Shown: positions 12,601 through 31,400 of the stretch, in pieces
How positions within the stretch are numbered: position 1 is the first letter of the stretch
Layout of the letters: each line of letters begins with the position of its first letter
From: Anadara kagoshimensis
Taxonomy: Eukaryota; Mollusca; Bivalvia; Arcoida; Arcidae
Direction of reading: 5' to 3'
DNA length: 64,000 bases
Assembly (NCBI GenBank): GCA_021292105.1
Contig: CM037857.1
Span: 32,744,680 to 32,808,679, forward strand
Position numbers and translations under genes: made by a program
The notes under the pieces: generated by a model
Seen by the model: the letters and a program-made list of their open reading frames with translations, nothing else
Database searches by the model: none
What the model was told of the DNA's origin: nothing

Positions 12601-15600
12601 GGCTATTGTAAAAAGGACCAGTGTAAATCATGATGCACATTAAAACTAACACATTGAACTTGTGTCAGAAATGATTATCAACTTAGACAGATTGATTGAA
12701 GGAAATTTTACATCCTAGTTAAGAAGGGAAGTGTCATTATTTTTCGTTGGTGGTTATTTAGCGGGCCATGCCTCTGGACAGAGATGATGTCTGATGGGGC
12801 AATTAACAATTGGATTTTCATGGGGTCCTCCTATGAAAAGCTAAAAATTCTAGAAGAAAAAAAGATTATTAATACTTAGGAACAGAAAGTTGCCCAAGCA
12901 AATTTGACAGACTTGTACATGATAAAACTGACATTATGTACTACAGAATATGTATTTTTCTAATAACTTTTAATATTATTTGGCTTTGATCTTTTTGACA
13001 ATTCTGTTTGCTTAAGGACAAACACCTTTTTTTTACTGTTCCCATCAGAAAAGTTCATGTAGAGCCCTGACTATACAGTCATACCTCATCTGTTGTAGAA
13101 GACTCCCATTGCCTCTCAAAAACTTTTACACCGCTTTCAAAATCACCCTTATCACAGCAGACTATAACAGCCTAAAAAGTAAAGGAAATAGTGTTAGTAC
13201 TTTACTGACAATTTTAACATGTAAAGATTTCAATAAAAGATTGTGTAGATTAATCGGTTGTTTTTTTTTTGTCTCAGTCCAAATTATTTCAAATGGAGAT
13301 GTCACAAGCTATATGTGAAGTGGCACAAATTTTTGCCATTGCTGTTTGTTCAAGACAATGTGAAGAAAGAGTTCTTTAATGTGCAAGGCTTACCCTGAAA
13401 AAAAAAGTCTCTACATGTATATACTTTCATCAAGTCTTAGTCAGACCCAGTCAGGCTTAGAACTTTTCATTCCAATCTTAGTATCAATTATTACAGGTGG
13501 TGGTGGTGGGGGGGGGGGGGGGGGGGGGAAACTATCATTTACAAGCACAAGGGATATAACAAATTTTTGGAACTTCAAACAGACACAAAAAATTTCTGGC
13601 CAATTTGGGAAAGGGACTTTGAAATGAAATTAGGAAAATCATTTAATAAAGTACACGTCAGCAAGGGTCATGTGAGTGGCCAAAAAAAATTTGCCTGGAC
13701 CAACTGTTAAAGGAATTATTCTTTTTTATATAATTACCTGAAGTTTTATGGTGGGAATAAAATCAAGGAATTTCTGTCTAAGCGATGTTGGTGCTTGGTC
13801 ACAAATATTTTGGAAGGTCTTTAATAGAACTTCAAGTACTGTTAGATCACTGTCTCCACTGTATCTGATAGCGTAGTCATTACCATCAGATAACATACAC
13901 AAGGCACCAAGGATTAGGGACTTCATCACTGTATTGTAATCCATCGAGTTCTGGTCCACTTGTGTAAGAATCCCTGTAAAAAATGTTGACAGCAAATATG
14001 TAGTTTAATTTAGAAGAACTTCATTTTATTTGGCATTGTAATTAAAACAGCATCCATAAATAATCTGAATGATTGTAGTGGACTTGGTGGATGGATCAAT
14101 ACACAATACATCGGTAACAGTGTAAGACAGAGATATCTTAAAACTCAGATGAAGCGAGTTCTGGACTTTGAAAAAATATTCATCCAAGTTTGAGATATCT
14201 CTTTCTCACATGAGACATGGTTTTTACCCATGTGAGATTTTTCTGTCTCACCCTAGGGTGAGATCACTTGTCTCAAACAACAATTTTCTCAATGTCACAA
14301 TCACTTAAACATGCATAATTGATGATGTCATATTCATTTTACGTGAGAACATCAACATAAATTGATTACATCATTTTCAGTATGCACGGATGACGACATG
14401 AAAACTGAACATTTGATGCAATTTTTTGCTTACATATTATGTTTTTTATTGCAATTGTGCAAGAAATAAATCCTGCACCAGTAACAGCGTAAGACAGAGA
14501 TATCTCAAACTCGGATGTTGCTAAAGCTTGTTTTGGAGAAGAAAATATTCATCCTCGTTTGAGATGTCTCTGTCTTACTGTGTTACTGGTGTAGGATTCT
14601 TTTTCTCACATATTTGCAACATAAAAACATGATTTGTAAACAAATATTTGCATCAAATGTTCAGTTTTCATGCCACCATTTGTTCCTTCTGAAAATGACG
14701 TCATCGAATTTTGTTGATGTTCTTGCATTAAAACTTAAAAGGATTATGATATCATCAATTCAGTGTCCGTAAATAATCCTTCCTCATCCGGAATTCCCGC
14801 TATTTTTTTTTATAGAATCTGATTAAAAAGTCAGAGAAACCCAATAAATGCGGGAGAATGTTCATGTAATCTGTCTCAACCAGGGTGAGACAGGAAAATC
14901 TAGCAACAGTGAAATAGCTGGATTCTCTTGTGACATGTGTGAGAAAAATGAAGGTTGGGCATAGGGTTAATTTTTTCGGACTGATTATTTACACTTAAGG
15001 CCGTATAGCGCAGGTAGTAGGCTGGCGTTATTTACACTTATGCATGCGCAATACGATAACTAATATCAGCTGTATACAGGCAAGGTTGTGGTCCCACGAT
15101 CTTAAGTTGTGATCGCTGAAGTATATCGGCCTAATAATACATGAGATTACGTAAAGTAAACTGTCAAACTAAATGAAACCATTTAAGGTAAATTGATCCT
15201 TAAATGTAAAAAAGTTTGATTGCAACACGTGTCGCGACCGGTAATCAGAATTCTTGTATTTTTTTTAAAATGATACCAAATTAAAATCAATGCAAGCAAT
15301 TTATTCTTATTTTCCTCTAATAATTGATTTTATTTTTTATTTTATATTTATTATTATTATTATTGATGAGAACATAATAATTCATCTTTTAAAAGTTTAA
15401 AATTTAAATCAATATAGATGTACTTGACCTGTTCATAGAAGAATTGTCAACAGGAATTAAAGAGCAACTACTTGATGAGTCGTGTTCGAATACCTAATTC
15501 ATGCGAATTTTCGCTTTGATTGTTAATCTCCATACTCCAATAAGGCTGTGAACACGGGATACCGTTCATCTCTTAATCCAATTAAGACCCATGAACACAG

Positions 15601-18600
15601 GATACTGAGTATTTCATTCACCGCTCAGGCATAGATCTGTGAACATGGGATGCTGCACGGGATCCCATTAAGACTGACTTTGAAGAAATAAATAGTATGG
15701 TGATGCATTTATTTTTTTTTCGAAGATGGGAATTGTTTTAAAATGTATTTGAATTTGAAATTTGACTTAAAACAAAAATTTTTGAAATATTTTGTTCCCA
15801 TATAGTCGTGTTCACGATCTTTTAGGCACCACGATCTATTTTTCCCGAGAAAACGTACTCATGACAAAACAAGGAATATTCTTGACAGACACGAAATATT
15901 CTTGACTAGGATTACAAAAATTAATTTAAGTGGATATATCGTTATAATCGTGAACCTCAAACATATTTGGGAATAACTGATTTAAAAGTCGCGTAATTTG
16001 CTCATAACAGATGATCTCCTACGGTTTGTATTGTGCATGAATCGCGATTATTAATCAACAAACACTTTTTAAAAATCTTTTTTTATGAAATAAACAACAC
16101 AAAAAAGTAATTTTATTATATTTTATTACGGATTTTACAATAATTCTGTGTCCATCGGTGTTTATTTTGTCCCATGAACGAAATCGGGAGGTCACCTGGG
16201 TATATCCTCGGGCAGTGTCGACACACTCCGATATCACAGTGATTTACCTGCCGATAATTAGACGGTCTTGCATTCACATCTTAGATAATCATCTCACTCT
16301 ACTCATAGTGATTAATACCGACCGTTAATTACTTTGTTTATCCCTCACTGGCTTCAATGTGTTATCACCTGTTAATTACAAGTGGTGACCAGGAATTTAC
16401 AAAACGTTGATTAAAACTAAACTTTCTGATATTTTTCCTCTTGTGTTTCTTTGCAAGTCATGTTATCTGTTTATTAAAAGATCCTGCAACTTTTTTCCCC
16501 ATCAGAGTGAAATAAGAGCCCATCTGGTTTTAAAATGTTTAGAACAACAAGAATTTACCTCATTTCCACATTTCCTAGAGCAAAATCGACGAAACATTAC
16601 AAACATGTCCAGCAAAAATCGAAATATATTGCCGTTGCAGAAATATCTACGATCAGAAAACAGCTGAAATGGTAGAATGCACTAATTGTGGGGAATGGTA
16701 CCATGTTTCTTGTATAACTTCTGGGCCTATTGAGTCTTTAGCAAAGTCTGATTCAAAATATTTTTGCAGTGACGTTTGTGAAACTGAACAGCAATCTAAA
16801 ATTTTAAATTTCTTGTAAATGTGTAAATATTTGTTAGTAATTTTTTAAGTAATTATTTTAGAAGTGAATTTGTAGGGACAGTTACAGTAAATTTCTGAGG
16901 TGATCAGTTGCGACTTTGTTTCGTGAGATCCACTCTCTTGTGTAACTTCAGAGATATTAATTGTCCATAAATTTTGTCATATACTAGTATTAGTTATCCA
17001 TTTTAATTTGTATACTATCACAAAAAGCTTCTAAAATTCTCATTTTCTCTTTAATTCTAAATCATTGTGATGGATAACTAATCAAATAGTCCTGTGAGAA
17101 CCACGTCCCCGTCGTGGGATATGGAAACATGTTCAGTTATTGTTCGTCATATTATATAATATAATTAAATTGATTTAATATAAAGAGTACCATGTTTTGA
17201 ATAATTAAATAATTTTTTATTACATAATAATGGCATATGACATTATGTAACTATTCCATGGCAAAGTGTTCTCGATATATTAGCCGATATACTTCATTGA
17301 ACACAACCTTGCCCTTATACAGCTGATATTAGTTATCGTATTGCGCATGCGTAAGTGTAAATAACGCCAGCCTACTACCTGCATTATACGGCCTTAAGTG
17401 TAAATAACGTTCGCCTAATTTTTTCCCTAAAACCAGCTTGTTGCAGAAAAGTTGTGTCTCTTTGTTCCCCAGGGAATTCAGAGGCAAAGGACTGGGATGT
17501 AATCATATGTTGTAATAAACATGATAAAGCTACATGGTATGTACAGCAAAATGATGTTACTACTGTCTCACATATGGGGTACATTTTAGGCTATTTGGTA
17601 GCACGCTATTTTTTACAAATGGGCAACTTGGATTCTAATCCTGGCGTCAACAGAAGGGAGATTTTCAATGTAATCAGTATTTATGTTACAGAAATGGGCT
17701 ATGCACTCAGTCTTAATTTACAAGCTTTAAATATATGGAAGTCATGGGTGCCATATTCACTTGATGTAGATTAAATATGGTTCCCATACTTGACTTCATT
17801 CAAGACAAACCCCCCCCCCCCTGACAATTCCATGACATTCTAACACACCCAAGAATTTAAAAGGTGGAGCAAGATACGCCATTCATATTTTGGGCTTAAA
17901 ATGTTTGTAATGATGGAAAAGTAAAAATGGACATAAAATATTTAAGAAGTATAGTGTGATAGTGTGAAATTAGTGCCTTTGTCCACAATATGTTTAGTAT
18001 CTGAGTGGGTGCTGGTCGTTTCGCCCCATTACATTTCCGCCCCAAACATAAACTTTTCCGCCCCAAAATAAAAGGTCATTCCGCCCCAAGCTTTTCCACC
18101 CCAATTGAATTTTCCGCCCCATTTTTTTAAAATTCATTTTTTCGTCTATTTTTTATTTATTTATTTTCAAGTGTTTTTTTTTTTTTTTTTGTAAAAAAAA
18201 AAAAATTATTTACGTTCTTTTTTCTTTATTTAGCAAACTACTATAGTCTATTTCTTGACCAACCTAAGTCCGGTGTGTTTCCGCATTTAAAATAGATCTA
18301 CAATGTATATGGCTTTATCTGAAATAAATAAAGATTTCACATGGTTACCGAATATTTTTTTACACATCTCTGAACTGTCACCCTGCGTAACATCATTTCC
18401 GTGACCGTCGAGACTTTCACTTATACCATGAGATGTGATTGATTAGCATCATTGATACATTATATCATGTATGTAATTGTGCTATATTGGTGATTTTGCA
18501 ATGTCAGTGAAATAATCTTGACTGGGACGTAAAACGCCGATTAATCAATCAATCAAACAGGTCAGTGTCTGTTGCATCACAAATTATGGAAGACCTTTGC

Positions 18601-21600: not shown

Positions 21601-24600
21601 CCCATGACCTTTTTCTATACATCAAAATGATTGTTGTATCAATACCTACAACATTCTAATATACATGCCTATACAAAAAGTTTATAGTTTTCGAGATAAT
21701 TAACCATTTCGGTATTGTTTCGCATCTGTGACCTTGACCTTTGAACCCATGACCTTTTTCTATACATCAAAATGATCGTTGTATCAATATCTACAACATT
21801 CTAATATAAATGCCTATACAAAAAGTTTATAGTTTTCGAGATAATTAACCATTTCGGTATTGTTTCGCATCTGTGACCTTGACCTTTGAACCCATGACCT
21901 TTTTCTATACATCAAAATGATCGTTGTAACAATATCTACAACATTCTAATATAAATGCCTATATAAAAAGTTTATAGTTTTCGAGATAATTAACCATTTC
22001 TGTATTGTTTCGCATCTGTGACCTTGACCTTTGAACCCATGACCTTTTTCTATACATCAAAATGATCGTTGTATCAATACCTACAACATTCTAATATACA
22101 TGACTATACAAAAAGTTTATAGTTTTAGAGATAATAATTATAATCAGAGGTAAAAAAAATTAGGTCACGACCTTCACAATTGACCTTGACCTCATTTTGA
22201 AGATACTAACAAGAAGATGTCAAAACTGAAAACCCCATGTCATTATCTGGTCAAATAGTCAAGTTATAACAATTTGAAGCTATTTTACGATTTTTTCAAA
22301 ATTAAACGCAAAAACGCGTAACCCATTTTTCGACCGAATTTCACGAAATGAACAAACTACAGGCTTAAGACCCTAGAGAAGCCAAATATTACATCAGATT
22401 TTTTCTCAAATCAATACTTTCGGAGAAGAAGATTTTTTAAGATTTTTGCACCCCTAGGTCACCTTGACCTAGTTATGGTAGCCATGGCAATGCCACGAAC
22501 AAATCAGAATTGCACCGATCCAGACATGCTTCTGACCAAGTCTCGTTGAAATCTGCCAAGTACTTTCAGAGGAGAAGTCGAAAATGTGTGTTAACGACGC
22601 ACGCACGCACGCACGCACGCACGCACATACACACACTGCACCATACCATAAGCTCACATGACCTTTGGTCAGGTGAGCTAAAAAGTTGTACCCGATCGTT
22701 TTGTCATTTCGGATAGAGAGAAAGTAGAGTTTTGCAGATCCTACCGTCGCTATGAGGGGGTACATTCTAGCGGTTGTATGCATAACTGGATCATTTAGTT
22801 GTTTTACCAGTTCCGAATTTTTACTACCGAATAATCTAAAATTTCAATCCCGTTCAATTAAGGGAATCGCAAAATAACTTTCTCAATTTGCTGTTTCTTC
22901 AACCGCTTCCTAAATGTACGACAGATTGTTGGTGACCTAGTTTAACGATGTAAACAAATCGTGATCACGGAAATGCTTTTTTCAAGAAAACATACTACCA
23001 CGTGTTTTTGATTACAGGTGTCGATATTTTGGAATCAGTAAACATATGTATTATTACACCACATAAATTTTATTTCCTCTGCTTGTGGATGACGTCTGCA
23101 GCAGCGCTTATATGAAACCCTGTTCGGAACTGGTAAAACGACTGTATTTAAAATTTGAACACAACACTGTACGAATTATCTCCCTTTCACGAAAGTAAAA
23201 TCTAATCGATAAACATTTTAAAATATGACACAATTGCCTCAACATCATAATACGTTATCATAACCTTCAAAATAAATTTAAATTCCCGTAGATTTCACGA
23301 AGAATTAATTAAACAACCTGCCGTTGCTGTTCATTTCTTAAAAAGTTATGATTTTACATCGTAGGACGCAAACTTCTCGAACTACTTTTTATTGTAAACA
23401 TGAGATCAGTTCGCCAAATTGCAGAAATTATTAGATGCATCCCGTCGCAATACTTTACTAGATTCTGAAATGTATTCCGAAAATTTATTTCAAATGTGCA
23501 TATGTAACCAAATGCATTACCCGTCTCAGAATACATATCTCACGATAAAACAGATATACTTCTTTCACGCTCATTTACCAGGCGCACTATTTCCAGGTGT
23601 ACTCGTATCTTATAATTTCATAGCAAAGAAGCTCGATATCTTGGAAGAAAGCGATACCAATTTACGCGTTCACTTTGTTCACGCTGTACAAAAAATTCCT
23701 TAACTAATATTTACACTTTTAAAAGAAAATTAAATATTTTATGGACAATTAATGTCTCTGAGGTTACACAAAGAAAGTGGATCTCACGAGCAAAGTCGCA
23801 ACTGATCACCTCAGAAAACTAATTGTACCGGTCCCTACAAATTTATTTCTAAAATAAACTAAAAAAATCCTTAACTAATATTTACACTTTTAAAAGAAAT
23901 TTAAATATTTTATGGACAATTAATGTCTCTGAGGTTACACAAAGAATGTGGAGCTCACGAGCAAAGTCGCAACTGATCACCTCAGAAAATTAAGTGTACC
24001 GGTCCCTGCAAATTTATTTCTAAAATAAAGTAAAAAATTCCTTAACGAATATTTACAAGAAATTAAAAGTATTAATAAAGATTAAATATTCTATTTCATT
24101 TGGTGTTCTGTTTCACAAAAGTCACTGCAAAAATATTTTGAATCAGACTTTGATAGAGACTCAATGGGTCCAGAATTGATACAAGAAACATGGTACCATT
24201 CCCCACAATTATTGCATTCTACCATTGCATCAGTTTTGTGATCGTAGATGTTTCTGCAACGGCAATATATTTCTATTTTTTGCTGGCCATGTTTTGTGAT
24301 GTTTCGTTGATTTGGCTTTAGGAAATGTGGAAATGGGGTAAATTCTTGCTGTTCTAAACATTTAACCAAATGGGCCCTCATTTCACTCTGATGGAAAAAA
24401 AAGTTGCAGGATCATTTCCTAAACAAATAACATGACTGATAGCAATTGCAAATAAACCACAGTCTAAGCCACCGGATTGTTGCTGTACTAATTTATGATC
24501 AATTTCTATATATTTATTTTCACATTTCAAAACTGTACAAACTTGCTTCATCGTTTCAGTAGACGCTGCTTTGTTAAGACTGTCATACAGATTAATATTA

Positions 24601-26993
24601 AAATTTCCAAAACGGGTTGCTGGGCATCATTTTCCAAAATGTTTGTAGACTCATCTATTATACCACCCATTGGAGACCGATTTCCCTGTTCAAGGTTAAT
24701 ACTAATTTCTGAAGTTTTCATTCTCTTCTCAAGTTTATTTGTATTTGACTTTAATTTTCTTTTATTTGGGGCGTGTATTTTACTGGAAAAATGCCAAAAA
24801 GGTTTAGTGCTTTAGTGATTCACACCCGGCGATTTCACAAAATTACTCCTCTTCAGAATCTCACCAACATACACTTCTTTCACGCCTGACGATTTCAAAC
24901 TATCCACTAACGCACAAATATTCCTAATAATTTCCGTTGGTCCACAAGTTGGAGAAACGTCATTACCACCTAACTGAATATACACTACGTGGGGCTTGTA
25001 ACACAACAACGGACGAAATAGTTCACTATCAATACTGTCTGCTCTCATACCGCCTTTCCCGAAACAACGCACATTCACTGGCACCCTAAAATCACCCTTG
25101 CACCACATGTCTACTCTCTTTACATAACTAGATCCAAAAACAGCCACTCTTGTCATTAAATTAACACGTCTGTCTCTAAGCACCATTAACATTTGTCCAA
25201 ACACATTCTCTCCATCACCGTATCTTCCACTTCCCCAATATCTATCGGCCACATTATGCACAAGCACTCTGTCTCTACTTTCAATCAAATATCTCGCAAA
25301 CTCTTTCACTTGTTCAAATTTCTTAATGTCATTCGCTAACTCTAAAAATCCATGGTCCACCGCCTTCCGAAACTGATATGCATGCTCAACACTATTAAAT
25401 ACTTGTCCCATATAATAAACTTTACACGGATAAAAATTTGACAACACACAATCTTCACCTTTGAAAAACAAAGAAGCCATTCTCATAAATAAGTGATTTG
25501 GTTCAGGTTCAGTATCAAACTGTGCCTATTGCTATAACTTAGCCCTTATTTATAGTCCAGAAATTATTGACACCTAATTAAGTAGCAGTGTCCCAAGTTC
25601 ACAGATACCTACTTACCTATACTTGATCGGTCAATTAATTACTCAGAATCCTGTGTTCACGGGTCTTAATTGGATTAAGAGATTAACGGTATCCCGTGTT
25701 CACCGTCTTAATGGGATTAAGTGATTAACGGTTCGGTGCAGCGTCTCATGTTCTATACCTAATTACTTTGACACGAGCGGTGCATTAATTACACAGTATC
25801 CTATGTTCACGGGTCTTAATTAGATTAAGTGATTAACGCTTCCGTGCAGCATCCCATGTTCACAGATATGTACCTAATTACTTTGACATGACAGTGAATT
25901 AATTACTCAGTATCCTATGTTCACAGGTCTTAATTAGATTAAGAGATTAACGTATTCACATCCTTACTGGAGTATGGAGATTAATAATCAAAGTGAATTA
26001 ATTAATTAGTTGTTCGAACACGACTCATCAAGTAATTGCTCTTTAATTCCTGTTGACAAATCCCCTATAAACATGTAAAGTACATCTATATTGATTTTAA
26101 TTTAAAACTTTTTAAAGATTAATTATTATGTTCTCATCAATTATGATAATAATGATAATAAAATCAATTATTAGAGGAAAATAAGAATAAATTGCTTACA
26201 TTGATTTTAATATTATACAAGTATAAATTGAATAATTCTGATTACCGGTCGCGACACGTGTTCCAATAAAACTTGATCAATTTACCTTAAATAGTGACAT
26301 TATAGTTTGACAGTTTACTTTACAAAATCTCATGAATTAGGCCGATATACTTCAGTGATCACAACTTTAGATCGTGCGACAGTATTGCCGACATACTTCA
26401 TTGAACACAACCTTGCCCTTATACAGCTGATACTAGTTATCGTATTGCGCATGCGTAAGTGTAAATAACGCCAGCCTACTACCTGGACTATACGGCCTTA
26501 AGTGTAAATAATCAATCCGAAATAATAATTTAACAGTCAGAGAGGTCGGTCAAAAATAGTTTGCTAAACAAAGAAAAAGTACGTGAATAAAAGTCATTAA
26601 AAAAACCAAACTTGAAAATAAATAAATAAATAAATTAATTAATTAAAAACATGGGGGGGGGAGAAATTTATTTGGGGCGGAAAAGCTTGGGCGGAATGAC
26701 ATTTTGTTTGGGGCGGAAAAGTTTATGTTTGGGGCGGAACGACATAGGGCGGAAAGGATTTGGGGCGAAATGACTATAATTCATCTGAGTATGTCATGAG
26801 CGGCGTTGTGGGTTCGCCTAAACTTCAAAGTTCTCCCTTGTAACGTACATTGTACAAAATCTCGGGTAGTGTTAACATCAACTTTTCTTGTTTTAGAAAA
26901 TTCTTCCCATGTATACCAATAAGAATACTCTAAAAGCCAACTATTCAATCTTTTGTTTGCTTTGTTTTCAATTTCTGTCTTGCCCGCCATCAT
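3366..26993 (-). CDS. TERF: TRF1/TRF2-like telomere repeat-binding protein (whole gene, nine exons seen)
   Basis: Homologue of the shelterin double-strand telomere-binding factors, which dimerise through a TRFH domain and bind TTAGGG repeats through a C-terminal Myb domain in the nucleus. Exons seen (plus coordinates, read right to left): about 26,784-26,993, 13,738-13,973, 13,085-13,171, 12,221-12,370, 10,189-10,255, 8,000-8,117, 7,487-7,559, 4,958-5,011, 3,366-3,682. The summed product is about 435 residues, close to vertebrate TRF1. Order fits the family: N-terminal TRFH helices ([12 protein letters not shown]), middle helices ([16 protein letters not shown]), a late TRFH segment ([15 protein letters not shown]), a Ser/Lys/Glu-rich linker, then the Myb domain with telobox VKLKDRWRT. 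Phases match at every junction except exon 5 to exon 6 (phase 1 against 2), which implies an unseen exon, and exon 1 to exon 2, where no GT donor is visible. The first intron is filled with transposons. Domain order and telobox make the identity strong; whether the gene is intact is less sure. Confidence 0.85.
3900..3927. repeat. Poly-A tract in TERF-like intron
   Basis: About 28 consecutive A on the plus strand. The surrounding intron shows no other recognisable element. The small frames that cross it translate to Lys or Phe runs and are not genes. Confidence 0.9.
4582..4790. mobile_element. 209-bp MITE, copy 1 of 3
   Basis: Begins AATTGACGGATCACTGG and ends with the inverted CCAGT/GATACGTCAATT. 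The interior carries CACAATGTTCCGACAAAGG and ATGAAAACTCGGTCTG, matching the copies at 6,643 (inverted) and 28,775. All three measure 209 bp. It lies in the last intron of the TERF-like gene. The minus frame of 63 residues inside it is a by-product. Confidence 0.85.
4958..5011 (-). CDS. TERF: TERF-like exon: linker segment
   Basis: A 54-bp exon between acceptor GTTTCAG and donor GTGATTA on the minus strand. It begins with two bases completing an Asp codon and ends with one base of the Gly codon finished by the last exon, so both junctions are in phase. It encodes a Ser/Asn/Arg-rich piece ([17 protein letters not shown]). Only one of its three frames is open and phase-compatible. Confidence 0.8.
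   Translation of the reverse strand: MLMQARTTVTAVLVTDQ
5540..5996 (+). pseudogene. Degenerate BED zinc-finger start next to a hAT-like terminus
   Basis: From the ATG at 5,669 the frame reads [14 protein letters not shown], then TTTACNIHG. The RSKVWDHF block is typical of the BED zinc finger at the start of hAT transposases and ZBED proteins, but the second Cys of the CxxC pair is replaced by His and the HxxxH part is absent, so the finger is broken. The upstream text is GC-richer than its surroundings. About 320 bp downstream the sequence TTTGTCCCAGCCCTA (ending near 5,996) looks like a hAT-type right end. I did not find the matching left end. A chance or domesticated exon is the alternative. 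Confidence 0.4.
6528..6580 (-). mobile_element. SINE 3'-tail relic
   Basis: GGAGTAATGTTGGAAATACG followed by CCCAGTCAAGAGTATTTCAC and TTATATC is the reverse complement of the common SINE tail. It lies directly after a poly-C run at 6,498-6,511. The head is missing. Confidence 0.65.
6643..6851. mobile_element. 209-bp MITE, copy 2 of 3 (inverted)
   Basis: Starts AATTGATGTATCGCCG and ends GCGATACATCAATT. The interior is the reverse complement of the copies at 4,582 and 28,775 (TTTCATTCATTTTGCATG, GGTACCAAAGCAGC-type blocks). It carries more substitutions than the other two but has the same 209-bp length. Confidence 0.85.
7139..7198. repeat. Three 20-bp tandem units
   Basis: GCATATTGATTTGTGTCTTT is repeated three times head to tail, with one T-to-G change in the middle unit. 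It is intronic to the TERF-like gene. Confidence 0.85.
7487..7559 (-). CDS. TERF: TERF-like exon: linker segment
   Basis: 73-bp exon flanked by acceptor TTGTTTTCAG and donor GTAAGTATG. It starts in phase 0 and leaves one base. The translation ([16 protein letters not shown], then YKEDTESE) is basic then acidic and joins in phase to exons 8,000-8,117 and 4,958-5,011. No known domain; it is part of the flexible linker between TRFH and Myb domains. Confidence 0.8.
7805..7915 (-). mobile_element. SINE 3'-tail relic
   Basis: Contains GGTGTTTAATGTCCCAATCA, then AGAATATTTCACTTATA and CCCCAGCTATAGGC, the reverse complement of the SINE tail with minor changes. The frame of 86 residues that covers it is not a gene. 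Confidence 0.75.
8000..8117 (-). CDS. TERF: TERF-like exon: heptad-like linker helix
   Basis: 118-bp exon with acceptor TATTATTTCAG and donor GTAAGCATT. It enters with one base and ends in phase 0. It encodes 39 residues rich in Leu, Ile, Lys and Glu with roughly heptad spacing ([19 protein letters not shown], then [10 protein letters not shown]), suggesting a short coiled coil. Its entry phase does not match the exon at 10,189-10,255, so one exon of length 3n+1 is probably missing from my model. Confidence 0.8.
8118..8769. other. TERF-like intron, unique-looking
   Basis: No exon with consistent phase could be recognised, although one small exon is expected somewhere between here and 10,188. 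The sequence is AT-rich and has no repeat match inside the window. Confidence 0.4.
8770..9835 (+). mobile_element. Repeat family X, copy 1 (about 1.07 kb)
   Basis: Matches the interrupted copy at 19,906-23,693 over almost its whole length: the block AACATAGCACTGCCGTGCTG, a C/G-rich run, GGAAAAAGAAACAATGTACC, AGTTGTACCCGATCGTTTTG, and the open frame at 9,474-9,809. It lacks the pearl-like insertion and the 347-bp MITE present in copy 2, so it acts as the empty-site reference for both. No terminal repeats are evident. It lies inside the intron between the 10.2 and 8.1 kb exons. Confidence 0.8.
9474..9809 (+). CDS. Unrecognised 111-residue frame in repeat family X
   Basis: The frame reads from [15 protein letters not shown] to QAWKLYK. 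It is conserved as an open frame in the second copy (23,419-23,703) for about 75 residues before that copy diverges, with mostly synonymous or mild differences. I do not recognise a domain. Further downstream (9,850-9,950) the translated string [14 protein letters not shown] resembles a stretch seen in some LINE-type polyproteins, but this is weak. It is a mobile-element frame and not a host gene. Confidence 0.35.
   Translation: MQKLLDASCRNILLDSEMYSENLFQMCICNQMHYPSQNTYLTIKQIYFFHAHLPGALFPCVLISYNFIAKKLDILEESDSKVRVHYREMLYKKFHPNLSREFHRQAWKLYK
10189..10255 (-). CDS. TERF: TERF-like exon: end of TRFH domain and start of linker
   Basis: 67-bp exon, acceptor TTTTTTGTAG and donor GTAAGGTGC. Only the phase-0 frame is open: [17 protein letters not shown], then SVGLK. 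It continues the end of the TRFH domain from the exon at 12,221-12,370 (PFLLM joined to LAKQLEE, comparable to PYLLTMAKK in vertebrate TRF2), then turns into a basic linker. It ends with one spare base, which does not fit the next recognised exon. Confidence 0.8.
10641..10908. mobile_element. Non-autonomous element with 3' hairpin (Helitron-like end)
   Basis: It contains the stretch TTTCATGAAAATCCATTGAAGG, then ACGGACGGACACATGGACGG, and ends with a perfect stem CCCCCACTT/AAGTGGGGG around 10,884-10,903. The architecture (no TIRs, a GC-rich terminal hairpin just before the end) is like a Helitron-type non-autonomous element. The 5' limit near GTGAGCCACAAGCTCAC is uncertain. Confidence 0.5.
11178..11410. 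mobile_element. 233-bp MITE, TIR TACTGTAGATTACTT
   Basis: The left end TACTGTAGATTACTTTTATT is mirrored by AAAAATAAGTGATCTACAGTA at the right end. The interior is rich in TTCGCGAAT-like segments. No coding capacity. Confidence 0.8.
11991..12072. repeat. Short dispersed repeat, copy 1
   Basis: AGTGAGGCCAGGTGCTCCGG with the following CTCCTGCTTAGCTAGCTAC block recurs at 27,162-27,232. The two copies share about 75 percent by eye. The copies lie in an intron of, and upstream of, the TERF-like gene. Confidence 0.55.
12221..12370 (-). CDS. TERF: TERF-like exon: C-terminal part of the TRFH domain
   Basis: 150-bp exon with acceptor TTCATTGTAG and donor GTAAGTATA, phase 0 at both ends. The 50 residues include [15 protein letters not shown] and [11 protein letters not shown], matching the late TRFH helices of TRF1/TRF2, where a bulky hydrophobic helix ends in a PxLL motif. 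Neighbouring exons join in frame on both sides. Confidence 0.85.
12391..12470. repeat. (GGAT)n microsatellite
   Basis: About 19 units of GGAT with a few interruptions (GAAT, GGGT, GGGAT). The minus-strand frame across it is a Ser-Ile-His-Pro run and not a gene. Confidence 0.95.
13085..13171 (-). CDS. TERF: TERF-like exon: central TRFH helix
   Basis: 87-bp exon, acceptor ACTTTTTAG and donor GTATGACTG, phase 0 on both sides. It encodes 29 residues: [20 protein letters not shown], then QWESSTTDE. The pattern AVxxCxxxGxFExxxxVFER is the same as in vertebrate TRF1/TRF2 (AVCMENGNFKEAEEVFER in human TRF1), which makes this the clearest TRFH signature in the gene. Confidence 0.9.
13496..13528. repeat. 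GGT/poly-G low-complexity tract
   Basis: GGTGGTGGTGG passes into about 20 consecutive G. It produces a poly-Gly frame on the plus strand that is not a gene. Confidence 0.9.
13738..13973 (-). CDS. TERF: TERF-like exon: N-terminal to middle TRFH helices
   Basis: 236-bp exon bounded by acceptor ACATTTTTTACAG and donor GTAATTATA. It enters with two bases and leaves in phase 0. It encodes 78 residues: [12 protein letters not shown], then [20 protein letters not shown], then [16 protein letters not shown]. The LxxxLCMLSxGxxLDxxF...LTxLE order is that of TRFH domains. The Met and short extension upstream of the acceptor are intronic. Confidence 0.88.
14100..14950. mobile_element. Foldback element, about 0.85 kb, with a 125-bp inner palindrome
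   Basis: The inner part (14,472-14,599) is an inverted repeat: CACCAGTAACAGCGTAAGAC on one side and GTCTTACTGTGTTACTGGTG on the other, with GAGATATCTCAAAC inside. Outer arms (about 14,215-14,471 and 14,600-14,945) are also inverted copies: CATTTGATGCAA against TTGCATCAAATG, and two GGGTGAGAC blocks. A partial extra copy of the inner arm lies at 14,110-14,200. The whole can fold into one long stem. It carries no coding sequence. Confidence 0.75.
14978..17415 (+). mobile_element. Mutator-like element A: long TIRs and 10-bp target duplication
   Basis: TIRs of about 110 bp: TTATTTACACTTAAGGCCGT, then GTAGTAGGCTGGCGTTATTT, then the GCGCAATACGATAAC region at the left, and the same inverted at 17,304-17,408. 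TAATTTTTTC flanks both ends (14,968-14,977 and 17,416-17,425), a 10-bp direct repeat. TIRs over 100 bp with 9-11-bp duplications are characteristic of the Mutator superfamily; no MULE transposase is visible, so the class is inferred from structure. The interior holds a degenerate Ulp1/PHD gene (16,420-16,818). The left third is homologous to the right end of element B (23,694-26,518), which is inverted relative to it. Confidence 0.75.
16420..16818 (+). pseudogene. Ulp1-protease C-terminus plus PHD finger, frameshifted
   Basis: Remnant of the gene seen in better condition at 24,091-24,650. Pieces recognisable in shifting frames: [14 protein letters not shown], then [14 protein letters not shown], then a PHD-type zinc finger with [25 protein letters not shown] and YFCSDVCE, ending at TAA near 16,818. 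At least two frameshifts separate these blocks (after the poly-T/C run near 16,490-16,500 and near 16,620). The Ulp1 catalytic Cys region is lost. It sits inside Mutator-like element A. Confidence 0.8.
17426..17998. other. TERF-like intron between the two large insertions
   Basis: About 570 bp that appears to be original intron sequence between element A and the composite element. A 106-residue plus-strand frame (17,454-17,774) has no recognisable domain. A poly-C run lies at 17,810-17,821. Confidence 0.4.
18007..18125 (+). repeat. Left TIR of the composite element (TTCCGCCCC-rich)
   Basis: Reads GGTCGTTTCGCCCC, then CCGCCCCAAACATAAACTTT, then GGTCATTCCGCCCCAAGC. The same order is found inverted at 26,660-26,782. 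The TTCCGCCCC motif recurs five or six times within the TIR at irregular spacing. Confidence 0.75.
18490..18557 (+). mobile_element. SINE 3'-tail relic
   Basis: TCAGTGAAATAATCTTGACT then GGGACGTAAAACGCCG followed by ATCAATCAATCAAAC is the terminal part of the SINE tail with its simple-repeat end. Confidence 0.65.
18898..18942. repeat. (AAAT)n microsatellite
   Basis: Around ten AAAT/AATA units in an AT-rich stretch downstream of the broken transposase. Confidence 0.9.
19018..19564 (-). pseudogene. Kolobok-like (THAP-associated) transposase, C-terminal fragment
   Basis: Two overlapping minus frames together match the C-terminal part of Kolobok-type cut-and-paste transposases. The upstream frame has [20 protein letters not shown], then [19 protein letters not shown], the HxxW...C.G...L...W...NH..N.H pattern of that family. 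The downstream frame has [20 protein letters not shown], then [13 protein letters not shown], equivalent to the conserved E-F-N/H...FS...LAxxHxNEN block. A frameshift near 19,285 separates the frames and another lies upstream near 19,500. The catalytic DDE acidic residues upstream are not visible, so it is non-functional. Kolobok elements normally give TTAA duplications, so it need not belong to the surrounding TIRs. Confidence 0.65.
20166..22683 (+). mobile_element. Pearl-like non-autonomous element with tandem core repeats
   Basis: Begins ACAAGAGGCCCATGGGCTTA and ends TTTGGTCAGGTGAGCTA. It lacks TIRs. A core of about thirteen 145-bp units is followed by a unique 3' part containing TTTCACGAAATGAACAAACT and an (ACGC)n run. 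The plan (left end, tandem core, right end) is that of bivalve 'pearl' elements, considered Helitron-related in the literature. Repeat family X copy 1 (ATTTAAAAAAGTTGTACC at 8,994-9,011) shows the unoccupied target. A second 3' end lies at 36,395-36,772. Confidence 0.75.
20225..22130 (+). repeat. 145-bp tandem core of the pearl-like element
   Basis: Each unit contains CATCTGTGACCTTGACCTTT, ATGACCTTTTTCTATACATC, ACCTACAACATTCTAATATA, and TTTATAGTTTTCGAGATAAT. About thirteen copies are present; one near 21,130-21,170 is internally truncated. Variation is mostly single bases and 1-bp indels, concentrated in the first four units. Confidence 0.9.
22797..23143. mobile_element. 347-bp MITE, TIR AGTYGTTTTACCAGTTCCGA
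   Basis: The left end AGTTGTTTTACCAGTTCCGA and the right end TCGGAACTGGTAAAACGACT are near-perfect inverted copies. The element is absent from repeat family X copy 1 at the corresponding position, which confirms it as an insertion. No coding capacity. Confidence 0.8.
23419..23703 (+). CDS. Second copy of the unrecognised family X frame, truncated
   Basis: Starts like the 9,474 copy ([20 protein letters not shown]) and stays collinear up to [10 protein letters not shown], then diverges and ends at the junction with element B. The conserved frame over about 75 residues in two copies suggests it was once translated in the parent element. No domain recognised. Confidence 0.35.
   Translation: MQKLLDASRRNTLLDSEMYSENLFQMCICNQMHYPSQNTYLTIKQIYFFHAHLPGALFPGVLVSYNFIAKKLDILEESDTNLRVHFVHAVQKIP
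23694..24060 (-). repeat. About 2.1 tandem units of 175 bp at the 3' end of element B
   Basis: TTCCTTAACTAATATTTACA begins units at about 23,695, 23,870 and 24,040. Each contains GTCTCTGAGGTTACACAAAG and CAAAGTCGCAACTGATCACC. Element A has a single copy of this block (16,885-16,970, opposite strand), so the tandem expansion is specific to element B. Confidence 0.85.
24091..24650 (-). pseudogene. Ulp1-like cysteine protease with C-terminal PHD finger (transposon cargo)
   Basis: In translation order on the minus strand: [18 protein letters not shown], then [20 protein letters not shown], directly followed by [20 protein letters not shown], then [20 protein letters not shown], and a PHD finger ([33 protein letters not shown]). 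The Q...[11 protein letters not shown] block is the Gln and catalytic Cys region of C48 (Ulp1/SENP) peptidases; the YDSLN segment precedes it as in that family. The His/Asp part of the triad upstream is missing or scrambled. A one-base shift in a T-run near 24,402 breaks the frame between DPATFF and the HQSEMRAHL continuation. Ulp1 domains are known cargo in animal and plant transposons; the PHD finger may target chromatin. Non-functional as it stands. Confidence 0.8.
24812..25486 (-). CDS. NADAR (YbiA-like) domain fused to an SGNH-hydrolase domain
   Basis: A 224-residue open frame. Residues 7-104 resemble NADAR/DUF1768 proteins, which handle ADP-ribose-type or riboside substrates: FFKGED (7-12), LSNFYPC (15-21), [13 protein letters not shown] (30-42), [15 protein letters not shown] (83-97), then MLMVLRDRR. 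The stretch between residues 52 and 70 is shorter than usual, suggesting an internal deletion. Residues 113-224 resemble the start of an SGNH hydrolase: FGSSYVKR (117-124, block I), [10 protein letters not shown] (142-151, block II) and IQLGGNDV (170-177, block III with Asn175). The block V Asp-His pair is absent because the frame stops at residue 224. It is transcribed in the same direction as the Ulp1/PHD remnant and lies upstream of it in the element. It is probably a truncated accessory protein of the transposon; enzymatic activity is doubtful. Confidence 0.7.
   Translation of the reverse strand: MRMASLFFKGEDCVLSNFYPCKVYYMGQVFNSVEHAYQFRKAVDHGFLELANDIKKFEQVKEFARYLIESRDRVLVHNVADRYWGSGRYGDGENVFGQMLMVLRDRRVNLMTRVAVFGSSYVKRVDMWCKGDFRVPVNVRCFGKGGMRADSIDSELFRPLLCYKPHVVYIQLGGNDVSPTCGPTEIIRNICALVDSLKSSGVKEVYVGEILKRSNFVKSPGVNH
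25630..25960. repeat. 130-bp tandem repeats in the 5' region of element B
   Basis: Two and a half to three units containing CAGTATCCTATGTTCACGGG, CTTAATTAGATTAAGTGATT and ACCTAATTACTTTGACA. Element A has about one and a half units at 15,540-15,660. Such subterminal repeats are common sites for transposase binding, but that role is only a possibility. Confidence 0.75.
26660..26782 (-). repeat. Right TIR of the composite element (GGGGCGGAA-rich)
   Basis: GGGGCGGAAAAGTTTATGTT followed by GGGGCGGAACGAC, then GGGGCGAAATGACT, ends next to the ATCTGAGT duplication. It mirrors 18,007-18,125 with a few indels. Confidence 0.75.
26784..26993 (-). CDS. TERF: TERF-like first coding exon: N-terminal TRFH helices
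   Basis: Starts with two adjacent ATG codons at 26,993 and encodes about 70 residues: [20 protein letters not shown], then a Lys/Thr-rich loop, then [15 protein letters not shown]. NxWLL and FRRTxNxAxxIL correspond to the first TRFH helices of TRF1/TRF2 (DFRRTRNSAEAII in human TRF1). The exon should end here and join the exon at 13,973, but neither the present sequence nor the sequence rebuilt without the transposon has a GT donor; instead the frame meets a TGA at 26,781-26,783. The composite transposon's 8-bp duplication covers the last codons. The exon may be broken or use an unusual donor. Confidence 0.75.
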
Positions 26994-29252: not shown

Positions 29253-29353
29253 CGCTAACTGGCTAATGAGATACCATTTTGCCAATCAGAAGCCTTGTAA
29301 CAAAAGGGTCTATAGTTAATGATGAAAATACCGGTCGGTAACCAGCTACAGGT

Positions 29354-31100
29354 GAAGTGGCAGAGGCAGACAGTTCTGGGATAGTGACTGAGGCGGACAG
29401 TTCTGGGATAGTAACTGAGACGGGCAGTTCTGGGATAGTGACTGAGGCAGGCAGTTCTGGGATAGTGGCAGAGGCAGGCAGTTCTGGGATAGTGGCAGAG
29501 GCGGAGAGTTTTGAGATAGTGGCTGAGGCGGGCGGCCAGTTCTGGGATAGTGGCTGAGGCGGGCAGTTCTGGGATAGTGGCTGAGGCGGACAGTTCTGGG
29601 ATAGTGACTGAGGCGGGCAGTTCTTGGATAGTGACTGAGGCAGGCAGTTCTGTGATAGTGGCTGAGGCGGGCGGCCAGTTCTGGGATAGTGACTGAGGCG
29701 GGCAGTTCTGGGATAGTGGCTGAGGCGGACAGTTCTGGGAAAGTGACTGAGGCGGGCAGTTCTTGGATAGTGACTGAGGCAGGCAGTTCTGAGATAGTGG
29801 CTGAGGCGGGCAGTTCTGGGATAGTGGCTGAGGCGGGCAGTTCTGGGATAGTGGCTGAGGCGGGCAGTTCTGGGATAGTGGCTGAGGCGGGCAGTTCTGT
29901 TCTTGGTTAGTGACTGAGGCGGGCAGTTCTGGAATAATGACTGAGGCGGGCAGTTCTTGGACAGTGACTGAGGCAGGTAGTTCTGGGATAGTGGCTGAGG
30001 CGGGCAGTTCTGGCATAGTGACTGAGGCGAGCAGTTCTGTGATAGTGGCTGACTCGGGCAGTTCTGGGATAGTGACTGAGGCGGGCAGTTCTGGGATAGT
30101 GACTGAGGCGGGCAGTTCTTGGATAGTGACTGAGGCGTCAGTTTTGGGATAGTGACTGAGGCAGGCAGTTCTGGCATAGTGGCTGAGGCAGGCAGTTCTG
30201 GGATAGTGACAGAGGCGAGCACTTCTGAGATAGTGACGGAGGCGGCCAGTTCTGGGATAGTGGCTGAGGCGGTCAGTTTTCGGATAGTGGCTGAGACGGC
30301 CAGTTCTGGGATAGTGACTGAGGCGGCCAGTTCTGAGATAGTTACTGAGGCGGCCAGTTCTTGGATAGTGGCTGAGGCAGTCAGTTCTGGGATAGTGACA
30401 GAGGCTGGCAGTTCTGGGATAGTGACCGAGGCGAGCAGTTCTGGGATAGTGGCTAAGGCGGGCAGTTCTGGGATAGTGACTGAGGCGAGCAGTTCTGGGA
30501 TAGTGACTGAGTCGGGCAGTTCTGGGATAGTGACTGAGGCGGGCAGTTCTGGGATAATGGCTGAGGTGGCCAGGATAGTGGCTCAGTGGTGGGCAGTTCT
30601 GGGATAGTGGCTGAGGTGGGCAGTTCTGTTCTTGGTTAGTGGCTGAGAGTCGGGCAGGTCTGGGATAGTCACTGAGGCAGGCAGTTATGGGATAGTGCTG
30701 AGGCAGGCAGTTCTGGGATAGTGACAGAGGCGGACAGTTCTGGGATAGCGACTGAGGCGGCCAGTTCTGGGATAGCGACTGAGGCGGGCAGTTCTGGGAT
30801 AGTGATTGAGGCGAGCAGTTCTGGGAAAGTGGCTGAGGCGGGCAGTTCTGGGATAGTGACCGAGGCGAGCAGTTCTGGGATAGTGGCTGAGCGGGCAGTT
30901 CTGGGATAGTGACCGAGGCGAGCAGTTCTGGGATAGTGGCTGACCGGGCAGTTCTGGGATAGTGTCTGAGGCGGGCAGTTCTGGGATTGTGGCTGAGGCA
31001 GGCAGTTCTGGGATAGTGGCGGAGGCGGACAATTCTGGGATAGTGGCTGAGCTGGCCAGTTTTGGGATAGTGGTTGAGGCGGACAGTTCTGGGATAGTGG
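29354..31100. repeat. 27-bp minisatellite, about 64 copies
   Basis: Unit GGCAGTTCTGGGATAGTGAC plus TGAGGCG. Being a multiple of three and nearly free of stop codons, it stays open in several frames: plus (SSGIVTEAG)n and minus (LPASVTIPE)n, (PQPLSQNCP)n and (RLSHYPRTA)n, giving frames up to 319 residues. No signal peptide, splice site or start context is consistent with a gene, so I treat all frames as shadows of the repeat. Units vary at a few fixed positions (GACTGA or GGCTGA; GGGCAG, GGACAG, GAGCAG or GGCCAG), and a few have 1-6 bp indels that shift frame. Confidence 0.95.
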
Positions 31101-31116
31101 AAGAAACAAGAATACC

Positions 31117-31400
31117 ATGAGAAAACAACTGCCCTTCAGCAAGCGGACTGACACGCTTTCTCCTTTCACTTCTTTGGGCGGACAACTTATTCAGGACTCC
31201 ATGAGAAAACATCTGCCGTTCGGCAGACTGACTGACCGTAACGCTTTCTAATTTCACCGCTTTGGGTGGACATATATATAATCTTATCGGTTAGGTTTGA
31301 GACGCCCGGTCACATAAGAAAACAACTGCCCTTTGGCAGGCAGACTGGTTAACTTTCTCATTTCACCACTTTTGGTGGACAAACGATGAATATTATTCAG
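31117..31400. repeat. Three diverged tandem units of about 95-115 bp
   Basis: Each unit contains ATGAGAAAACAACTGCC, a GGCAGACTG segment, CTTTCTCATTTCACC and TTTGGTGGACAA. It directly follows the 27-bp minisatellite, and the SINE at 31,390-31,705 follows it. Confidence 0.75.

Follow-up and report, generated by a model that had tools for sequence, protein, structure and literature searches.

What is a gene for a NADAR-SGNH protein doing inside a decayed DNA transposon? One locus of the bivalve Anadara kagoshimensis raises this question. It lies in a stretch of 64,000 nucleotides, here called the window, of contig CM037857.1 (assembly GCA_021292105.1, positions 32,744,680 to 32,808,679 of the forward strand). 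An open frame on the minus strand of this window joins a NADAR domain to an SGNH hydrolase domain. An earlier note, made from the letters of the window, had read the frame as a fusion carried by a Mutator-like transposon. We consider that it is probably the remnant of an accessory gene of a Mutator-like element (MULE), and that its product would erase ADP-ribose or ester marks. The probability that we give to this reading is about 0.55.

The open frame spans 24815-25525 (minus strand). Its stop codon is at 24812-24814 and its first ATG at 25486, and it encodes 224 amino acids. The motifs LSNFYPC, SVEHAYQ, GENVFG, FGSS, GKGG and LGGND are all present in this single frame, as first noted. Against Pfam, the N-terminal half of the protein matches NADAR (PF08719) with an E value of 1.8e-11 and 45 bits, above the cut-off of 35.1. 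This was the profile that the earlier note had set as a test. C-terminal to NADAR, Lipase_GDSL_2 is matched with an E value of 2.1e-5 and 25.5 bits, below the cut-off of 32.9.

We searched the genome with the window protein (1.1 Gb, 36 contigs; contigs are labelled C and fetched stretches L). It has 210 matches, with 150 of 538 candidates scored, and several genome copies present open NADAR-SGNH frames of 313-340 amino acids. We named the family of the window element F1 and fetched nine siblings (L009-L017). Three of them (L009, L010 and L011) have the full 321-residue NADAR-SGNH with no stop, and the full-length protein of L009 is above both Pfam cut-offs (NADAR 72.7 bits, GDSL_2 36.8 bits). 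The fusion is therefore well founded, and it is not confined to the truncated copy, a doubt that the earlier note had raised itself. A chance open frame was ruled out by the Pfam match, the 210 genome matches and the conservation of both halves between lineages with nearly saturated synonymous sites (see below). The NADAR-SGNH frame is a genuine coding relic, and the fusion is not peculiar to the window copy.

The element that holds the frame is called copy B. Its features are the following.

23690..26519, minus strand: copy B, the 5' part of a decayed F1 element, broken off at about 23690.
26383..26519, minus strand: 5' terminal inverted repeat (TIR), which starts CGGATTGATTATTTACACTTAAGGCC.
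25585..25952, minus strand: short tandem repeats in the 5' leader; a similar array is present in L009.
24815..25525, minus strand: NADAR-SGNH frame, with the NADAR half at about 25486-25163 and the SGNH half at about 25162-24815.
25316..25323, minus strand: junction of an in-frame NADAR deletion of about 105 bp (35 residues), from comparison with the siblings.
24812..24816, minus strand: junction left by the loss of most of the transposase and of the C-terminal end of SGNH; it joins positions 5030-7146 of the C16 stretch, about 2.1 kb.
24601..24812, minus strand: SWIM-to-Ulp1 stretch of the transposase gene (97.2% identity to the C16 element, and a match as protein too).
24381..24626, minus strand: C-terminal piece of Ulp1, its N-terminal part deleted; it ends in the motif DCGLFAIA, named by eye.
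24094..24411, minus strand: frame with a PHD finger at about 24264-24124 (PF00628, E 7.9e-7, 29.4 bits, cut-off 24).
23690..24057, minus strand: about two copies of a 171-bp repeat; in the sibling L009, this repeat lies ahead of the 3' TIR.

The 3' TIR of copy B was looked for and not found. The Ulp1 and PHD remnants lie downstream of NADAR-SGNH on the same strand, which bears out the Ulp1/PHD partner proposed for the element. Two window stretches after NADAR-SGNH present 97.2% and 99.4% identity to an F1 element on contig C16. Compared with this sibling, two pieces are missing from the window copy, one of about 2.1 kb (24812-24816) and one of about 0.3 kb (24600). The final 60 or so residues of the SGNH half are gone, and the Asp-His block with them. 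With these and about 35 NADAR residues lost, it is very unlikely that the window copy still functions.

The F1 ends start CGGATTGATTATTTACACTTAAGGCC and GGCTGACGTTATTTACACTTAAGGCC, and the TIRs of L009 measure 130 bp with 97.7% identity. A perfect 9-bp target-site duplication (TSD) flanks seven of the nine F1 copies that have both ends (13 sequences examined), including copy A of the window. In L017 the duplication agrees at 8/9 positions, and the flanks of L047 do not match. A genome search with the F1 5' TIR gave 228 candidates, and all 40 that were scored match. Where they were found among the families described here, the TSDs are 9-10 bp long (8-11 bp are expected of Mutator-like elements) and the TIRs are long. 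A MULE DDE transposase is present in some of these families, with PF10551 above the cut-off in L045, a locus with ends that were not found.

The C16 element shows what the window copy has lost. It has the F1 5' TIR and a degenerate NADAR-SGNH, followed on the same strand by a frame of 659 amino acids. This frame contains the last part of an RNase H domain of the MULE/ZSWIM1-3 type, a SWIM domain (25.5 bits, above the cut-off) and Ulp1. The transposase part matches PF21056 (ZSWIM1-3_RNaseH-like) with 32.4 bits (cut-off 27.2) and PF10551 with 25.0 bits, below its cut-off of 27.6. These matches, together with the TIRs and the 9-bp duplications, uphold the assignment to a Mutator-like element. The Ulp1 part is more divergent. 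The long C16 frame gave no C48 match in the Pfam search; against PF02902 (cut-off 20.7), the Ulp1 of C16 searched alone reaches 18.4 bits and the Ulp1 of L017 17.9 bits, neither of which passes. No Ulp1 structure was matched when the F1 Ulp1 was compared with solved structures. The C16 Ulp1 does match the Ulp1 of L049 (34.9 bits) by BLASTP with an E value of 1e-8. The parental order read from C16 is NADAR-SGNH, MULE-type transposase, SWIM and Ulp1, with PHD next in the window copy.

Searching the genome with the C16 frame gave 41 matches (55 candidates scored). Some of them, including the one in the window, are near NADAR-SGNH on the same strand. Examples are C3:23631310-23632302 with NADAR-SGNH at C3:23634483-23635214, and C7:30159802-30160424 with NADAR-SGNH at C7:30160411-30161178. 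The C16 element is itself broken, and another transposon follows at L050:1737-4640. There, directly after the Ulp1 part, we observed an open frame of 588 amino acids of the PF20700 family (254 bits) beside a YqaJ exonuclease frame.

The siblings are decayed to a different extent. L015 and L016 have one stop each in NADAR-SGNH. In L012, L013, L014 and L017 the gene is deleted, shifted, cut short or fused; a deletion in L017 put NADAR, a truncated SGNH and Ulp1 in a single open frame of 368 amino acids. In L009, a minisatellite array lies before the 3' TIR, and the PHD is only partly left. An intact, self-sufficient F1 element was looked for in the C12 TIR pair (L047) and the C16 element, and was not found. 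L047 (C12:13368200-13375280) is an F1 element holding a LINE-like (long interspersed nuclear element) endonuclease-reverse transcriptase, recognized by eye, which we take as a later insertion. For the copies at C15:47175005 and C13:16209184, both ends were looked for and not obtained, and we do not claim them as separate insertions. The earlier note had proposed to look in mollusc genomes for full-length relatives with the same neighbours. They exist within the source genome, with the restriction that the one match to cover the whole F1 transposase query free of stops is that of the broken C16 element.

Copy A, the second F1 element of the window, is shorter and non-autonomous.

14977..17415, plus strand: copy A, with both TIRs and a PHD relic.
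14968..14976, plus strand: left target-site duplication, TAATTTTTT.
17416..17424, plus strand: right target-site duplication, TAATTTTTT.
16482..16800, plus strand: PHD relic in two frames, with 82-85% residue identity to the PHD of copy B.

Its target duplication TAATTTTTT is perfect over 9 bp. A tblastn search with the L009 protein gave no NADAR-SGNH match in copy A, and the MULE DDE transposase is absent from both window copies.

Other repeats surround the two copies. Repeats of the GGGGCGGAA type and related sequence lie at 26557-26770, just outside copy B, and at 18016-18240, about 600 bases past copy A. A dispersed repeat has two copies, at 8768-9754 and 19902-23697. The latter adjoins the broken end of copy B and is split by a tandem array of units of about 145 bp (20244-22188; 12 overlapping copies of 300 nucleotides were listed). 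At 19277-19498 (minus strand) there is a transposase remnant with a Mutator-like PF20700 match of E 6e-4, below the cut-off; the neighbouring 19021-19299 is without match. Finally, at 29255-31290, a tandem repeat rich in proline and serine (PELPASATI..., SHYPRTARL...) is open over long, overlapping spans in several reading frames.

The fusion is present beyond F1. Five further lineages of the genome have 39-45% identity to the window family. In L019, a 6.4-kb element, the TIRs are 236/247 bp with 93.9% identity (gapped alignment, 11 gap columns). The empty site of L019, with a single 9-bp GACAAACAT, is present in L009. L019 encodes NADAR-SGNH and a frame of 814 amino acids, in which the MULE domain PF10551, with 23.6 bits, falls short of its cut-off (27.6) and the DDE triad was recognized by eye. 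NADAR-SGNH comes first, and the transposase frame begins inside an OTU-like part. The gene order in L020, L021 and L024 is opposite to that of L019.

L020 (7.5 kb) and L021 (8.8 kb) are 99% alike over their aligned parts and have different 10-bp target duplications (GTGTGGCACC and ATTAACAACC). Between their TIRs, both carry an OTU-transposase gene and a NADAR-SGNH frame of 335 amino acids. The OTU of L021 is above the Pfam cut-off, and the PHD of L020 is below it (16.4 bits). An array precedes the 3' TIR in L020. The L020/L021 transposase is homologous to that of L019 by tblastn. L024 joins a PHD (25.5 bits, cut-off 24) and an OTU above its cut-off in one frame of 733 amino acids, also homologous to the L019 transposase frame and followed by NADAR-SGNH. 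PF10551 gave no match in the tested frames of L020, L021 and L024.

L045 with L049 (C5:3147200-3153600) is the most striking relative found, since SGNH-like, NADAR, MULE, Ulp1 and PHD modules are all there. NADAR (70.6 bits) and MULE PF10551 (32.4 bits, above the cut-off) lie in a single frame of 1592 amino acids. An overlapping frame after it holds Ulp1 (34.9 bits, cut-off 20.7) and PHD (27.1 bits), and SGNH-like motifs are found in a short frame upstream of NADAR. Further copies of this family have 95-99% identity (C10 and most of C15) or 72-87% (C3). TIRs were looked for and not found in L018, L024 (the 3' TIR included), L045 and L046, and neither were target duplications in L018, L024 and L045. 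As a separate observation, NADAR-SGNH units follow each other head to tail in L022:4535-9629 and L023, possibly with short repeats at their ends (GAGT...GTCGACTTTAACGA, recognized by eye). The L022 units are near a LINE reverse transcriptase frame, and L023 is near an endonuclease frame.

We compared the coding sequences to investigate the selection pressure on the gene. Among the six lineages with open frames, all 15 pairs have a synonymous difference per site (pS) of 0.72-0.94 and a nonsynonymous one (pN) of 0.36-0.47, with L019 and L024 incomplete at the N-terminus. pS exceeds pN in both halves. It means that synonymous sites are near saturation between lineages, and that both halves are conserved as protein. 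In the closer pair L022 and L023 (327 codons), there are 34 synonymous and 9 nonsynonymous differences (pS 0.155, pN 0.012); L023 is frame-broken, and gapped codons were skipped. L020 and L021 differ in NADAR-SGNH by no synonymous and one nonsynonymous change. The values of the lineages and of the L022/L023 pair are signs of purifying selection on NADAR-SGNH.

The descent of the genes was also considered. L019 and L024 are the closer pair both by transposase frame (47%) and by NADAR-SGNH (48%), against 25-32% and 39% for the other pairs. This single comparison of three families fits a shared descent of the transposase and NADAR-SGNH genes. In a tree of 18 NADARs (10 of them outside rows), a branch with support 96/98 sets the 8 element NADARs apart from the rest. 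This split is found in 95% of 200 bootstrap trees, with a long-branch warning from the program. An origin of the whole fusion from phages or bacteria was rejected. Against phage records, none of the 269 records matching the L018 protein covers at least 80% of the query. Among viral contigs there are no relatives with the window protein and one with the family alignment, and general genome contigs gave five with the alignment. In all six of these contig relatives, the matched part ends together with NADAR, at residue 139-152 of the query.

NADAR PF08719 scores 94.6 bits in L018, 62.9 in L019, 79.9 in L022 and 72.2 in L017, and the NCBIfam model TIGR02464 is above its cut-off in three of four proteins. 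The profiles also match the solved NADAR structures 2b3w and 8bau, as well as GDSL structures. A catalytic Glu is present in most NADARs, with Asp in the BC4488 type and His in the phage type. The enzyme of P. nicotianae uses E43, K50, E125, D130 and W133 (PMC11543638); we took 8bau as this enzyme, its numbering being 2 higher at all five sites. E34, K41, D116 and W119 of L009 are the equivalents of E43, K50, D130 and W133, and they are invariant in 7/7 aligned rows. The Glu of the GENVFG motif varies in the same rows (E, Q, Q, E, L, N, E). An invariant His adjoins the column equivalent to E125, and the alignments place the gap differently as to whether this His replaces the Glu. For phage NADARs, a His is reported at the position of the Glu, and the NADARs of E. 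coli and phage that were tested are reported as active (PMC11125620). In the SGNH half, Ser, Gly and Asn are present in 7/7 rows, and Asp-His in 6/6 of the fuller rows.

Several results weigh against an accessory eraser enzyme. The catalytic-Glu column itself contains Val, Ile, Leu or Asp. GDSL_2 is below the cut-off of 32.9 in L018 (31.5 bits), L019 (30.4) and L022 (26.8), and so it is in L017 (26.2). The SGNH part of L045 is recognized at motif level only (Pfam 15.3 bits), and no TIRs of L045 were found in the 6.4 kb examined. In some L045 relatives, the match begins no earlier than about residue 136, the end of NADAR; the L045-type transposase could for this reason perhaps do without NADAR. 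L018 and L022/L023 have NADAR-SGNH, and no transposase was seen in the stretches fetched for them. The L020/L021 transposase is frame-broken, that of L024 is without DDE core, and the sole stop-free full-query match to the F1 transposase (C16) sits in a broken element. Regarding the selection across copies that the earlier note had asked about, the lineages and the L022/L023 pair present it. The differences between F1 copies, on the other hand, look neutral (1 synonymous and 6 nonsynonymous changes between L009 and L015; 2 and 7 between L009 and L016), which is expected of copies after insertion. Two L022 units differ by 5 synonymous and 5 nonsynonymous changes.

An accessory enzyme could act as follows. 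Known NADARs have guanine-ADP-ribose as substrate. The NADAR half would remove ADP-ribose from a nucleobase, and the SGNH half would cleave a carboxyl ester. Ulp1 or OTU would take off SUMO or ubiquitin, and PHD would place the complex on chromatin. Together, these modules would free the transposase complex, or DNA that was excised or broken, of marks set by the host, and in this way let transposition or its repair proceed. The NADAR-SGNH protein may well work in trans, because non-autonomous copies spread without transposase.

Alternatively, the protein may bind without catalysis. Its folds would hold membranes or nucleic acid, whether ADP-ribosylated or not, in the way of the SGNH of Oskar and of retrotransposon ORF1. 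The catalytic Glu of NADAR is not kept, the SGNH of ZfL2-1 ORF1p binds lipids with slow turnover, and Oskar is a non-catalytic SGNH protein (PMC3905857). However, the SGNH Ser, Gly, Asn and Asp-His are all retained in the six fuller proteins, and among phage NADARs with His for Glu, the one tested was reported active (PMC11125620). We regard a pure binding module as unlikely. Captured host cargo, in the style of Pack-MULEs, would mean that host enzyme genes were picked up by chance and carried without use. MULEs do carry host gene fragments (PMC6446971), the gene is present in non-autonomous copies without transposase, and L018 resembles a lone gene in its fetched stretch. Against cargo stand the purifying selection in L022/L023 with the conservation between lineages, and the grouping of the element NADARs on one side of their branch (with its long-branch warning). 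The same fusion also recurs next to different transposases, and NADAR shares one frame with the transposase in L045. We consider cargo quite unlikely. Between the two options of the earlier note, accessory protein or host cargo, the recurrence with different transposases, the L045 frame and the purifying selection favour the accessory protein; for its enzyme activity and role the note's proposal keeps the standing of a prediction.

A reverse transcriptase lies close to L022 and an endonuclease close to L023, which might suggest that the gene is a retrotransposon ORF, from a LINE or another type, lying by chance in a MULE. NADAR has been described in the ORF1 of an oyster Tx1 element (PMC12477816), and SGNH in that of CR1. 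This explanation is disfavoured, and we give it the slightest chance of all. The gene is enclosed by TIRs and 9-10-bp TSDs in F1, L020 and L021, NADAR and MULE share one frame in L045, and no reverse transcriptase was seen by eye in the frames of L009 and L020 (at least 100 amino acids) or of L019 (at least 60). A housekeeping or metabolic role, with NADAR acting on riboflavin-pathway intermediates and kept as a benefit to the host, would agree with TIGR02464, a model of riboflavin-intermediate N-glycosidases. It is very improbable for a multi-copy gene that lies between TIRs, includes an SGNH half and is accompanied by transposase, Ulp1/OTU and PHD. The evidence, which consists of architecture, linkage and selection, suggests an accessory eraser enzyme as the most economical reading, one in which we infer the activity.

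A more specific form of the eraser is doubtful, and we offer it with a small chance. The MULE could carry a complete kit that removes a hybrid ADP-ribose-ubiquitin mark and related DNA-damage signals, in answer to a host that marks transposing or extrachromosomal DNA. NADAR would free bases of ADP-ribose. SGNH would cut the ester by which DELTEX ligases attach ubiquitin to nucleic acid or ADP-ribose. Ulp1/OTU would trim SUMO or ubiquitin chains, and PHD would bring the kit to chromatin. The host would mark mobile DNA as a defence and the element would erase the marks, as a eukaryotic counterpart of the toxin-antitoxin style conflict over DNA ADP-ribosylation. Ester-joined ADP-ribose/ubiquitin marks have been described, also in the DNA-damage response (PMC7615817, PMC11467253, PMC13061329). 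It is a conjecture that an element with NADAR, esterase and ubiquitin/SUMO protease could in principle dismantle them.

NADAR and SGNH are each already known in other transposable elements. The NADAR retrotransposons (Ectocarpus Gypsy, oyster Tx1 LINE) also have NADAR on a transposable element; they are retroelements, and the available passages of their description mention no SGNH fusion (PMC12477816), whereas here we find a DNA transposon. An SGNH esterase serving or riding on a transposable element is seen in the ORF1 of CR1, RTEX and Penelope (PMC3905857). SGNH is also found in rotifer LTR (long terminal repeat) and Penelope-like elements (PMC5408684), and texim SGNH lies beside fish Helitrons (PMC4021074); the term NADAR is absent from the available text of these last two papers. 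The known SGNH-bearing elements are mostly retroelements, unlike those described here. DarT1-NADAR, the YbiA/YarT antitoxins and phage NADARs share the NADAR domain and keep the E, K, D and W positions, as here. They are prokaryotic or phage proteins, without SGNH in the cases seen, and differ from the element proteins at the catalytic Glu/Asp position. NADAR is also known in viruses (PMC9503650, where SGNH and "transpos" do not occur in the available text).

Neither a NADAR-SGNH fusion nor a DNA transposon with NADAR was recognised in the literature search, judged from its listings; Repbase reports and subscription papers were mostly outside its reach, and an earlier mention there is possible. 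In a paper on arthropod MULEs (PMC13359780), NADAR, SGNH, OTU and PHD do not occur in the main text. The roles of NADARs across eukaryotes, animals included, remain unclear (PMC11125620). Here, NADAR is linked to a transposase as a gene, and in one family the two are fused in frame; an esterase and ubiquitin/SUMO proteases go with them. The linkage gives reversible ADP-ribosylation a testable place in transposition. A possible use of ADP-ribosylation by the host against mobile DNA is hinted at as well; from six edible clams, an ADP-ribosylation of DNA specific to guanine has been reported (PMC11209040).

Among DNA transposons, Ginger1 elements also have an added OTU, Ulp1 or PHD (PMC2836005). 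Their transposase is Gypsy-integrase-like, in contrast to the MULE type here. The MULEs with Ulp1 (plants, hydra, lancelet) or OTU (MuDR-6_HM) have in common with our elements the MULE-type transposase, long TIRs, 9-10-bp TSDs and a ubiquitin/SUMO protease in or beside the transposase. The difference is that NADAR and SGNH are carried here, and neither appears in the available text of PMC2836005 and PMC6446971. Rehavkus, a possible relative in type, has a PHD with the transposase, a minisatellite before the 3' TIR, a 9-bp TSD and a long TIR (PMC6446971). The PHD and the minisatellite are scattered among our elements: L024 has the PHD without a 3' TIR found, L020 has the array and a PHD of 16.4 bits (below the cut-off), and L009 has the array and a partial PHD. 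The elements described here differ from Rehavkus in the presence of NADAR-SGNH and OTU/Ulp1.

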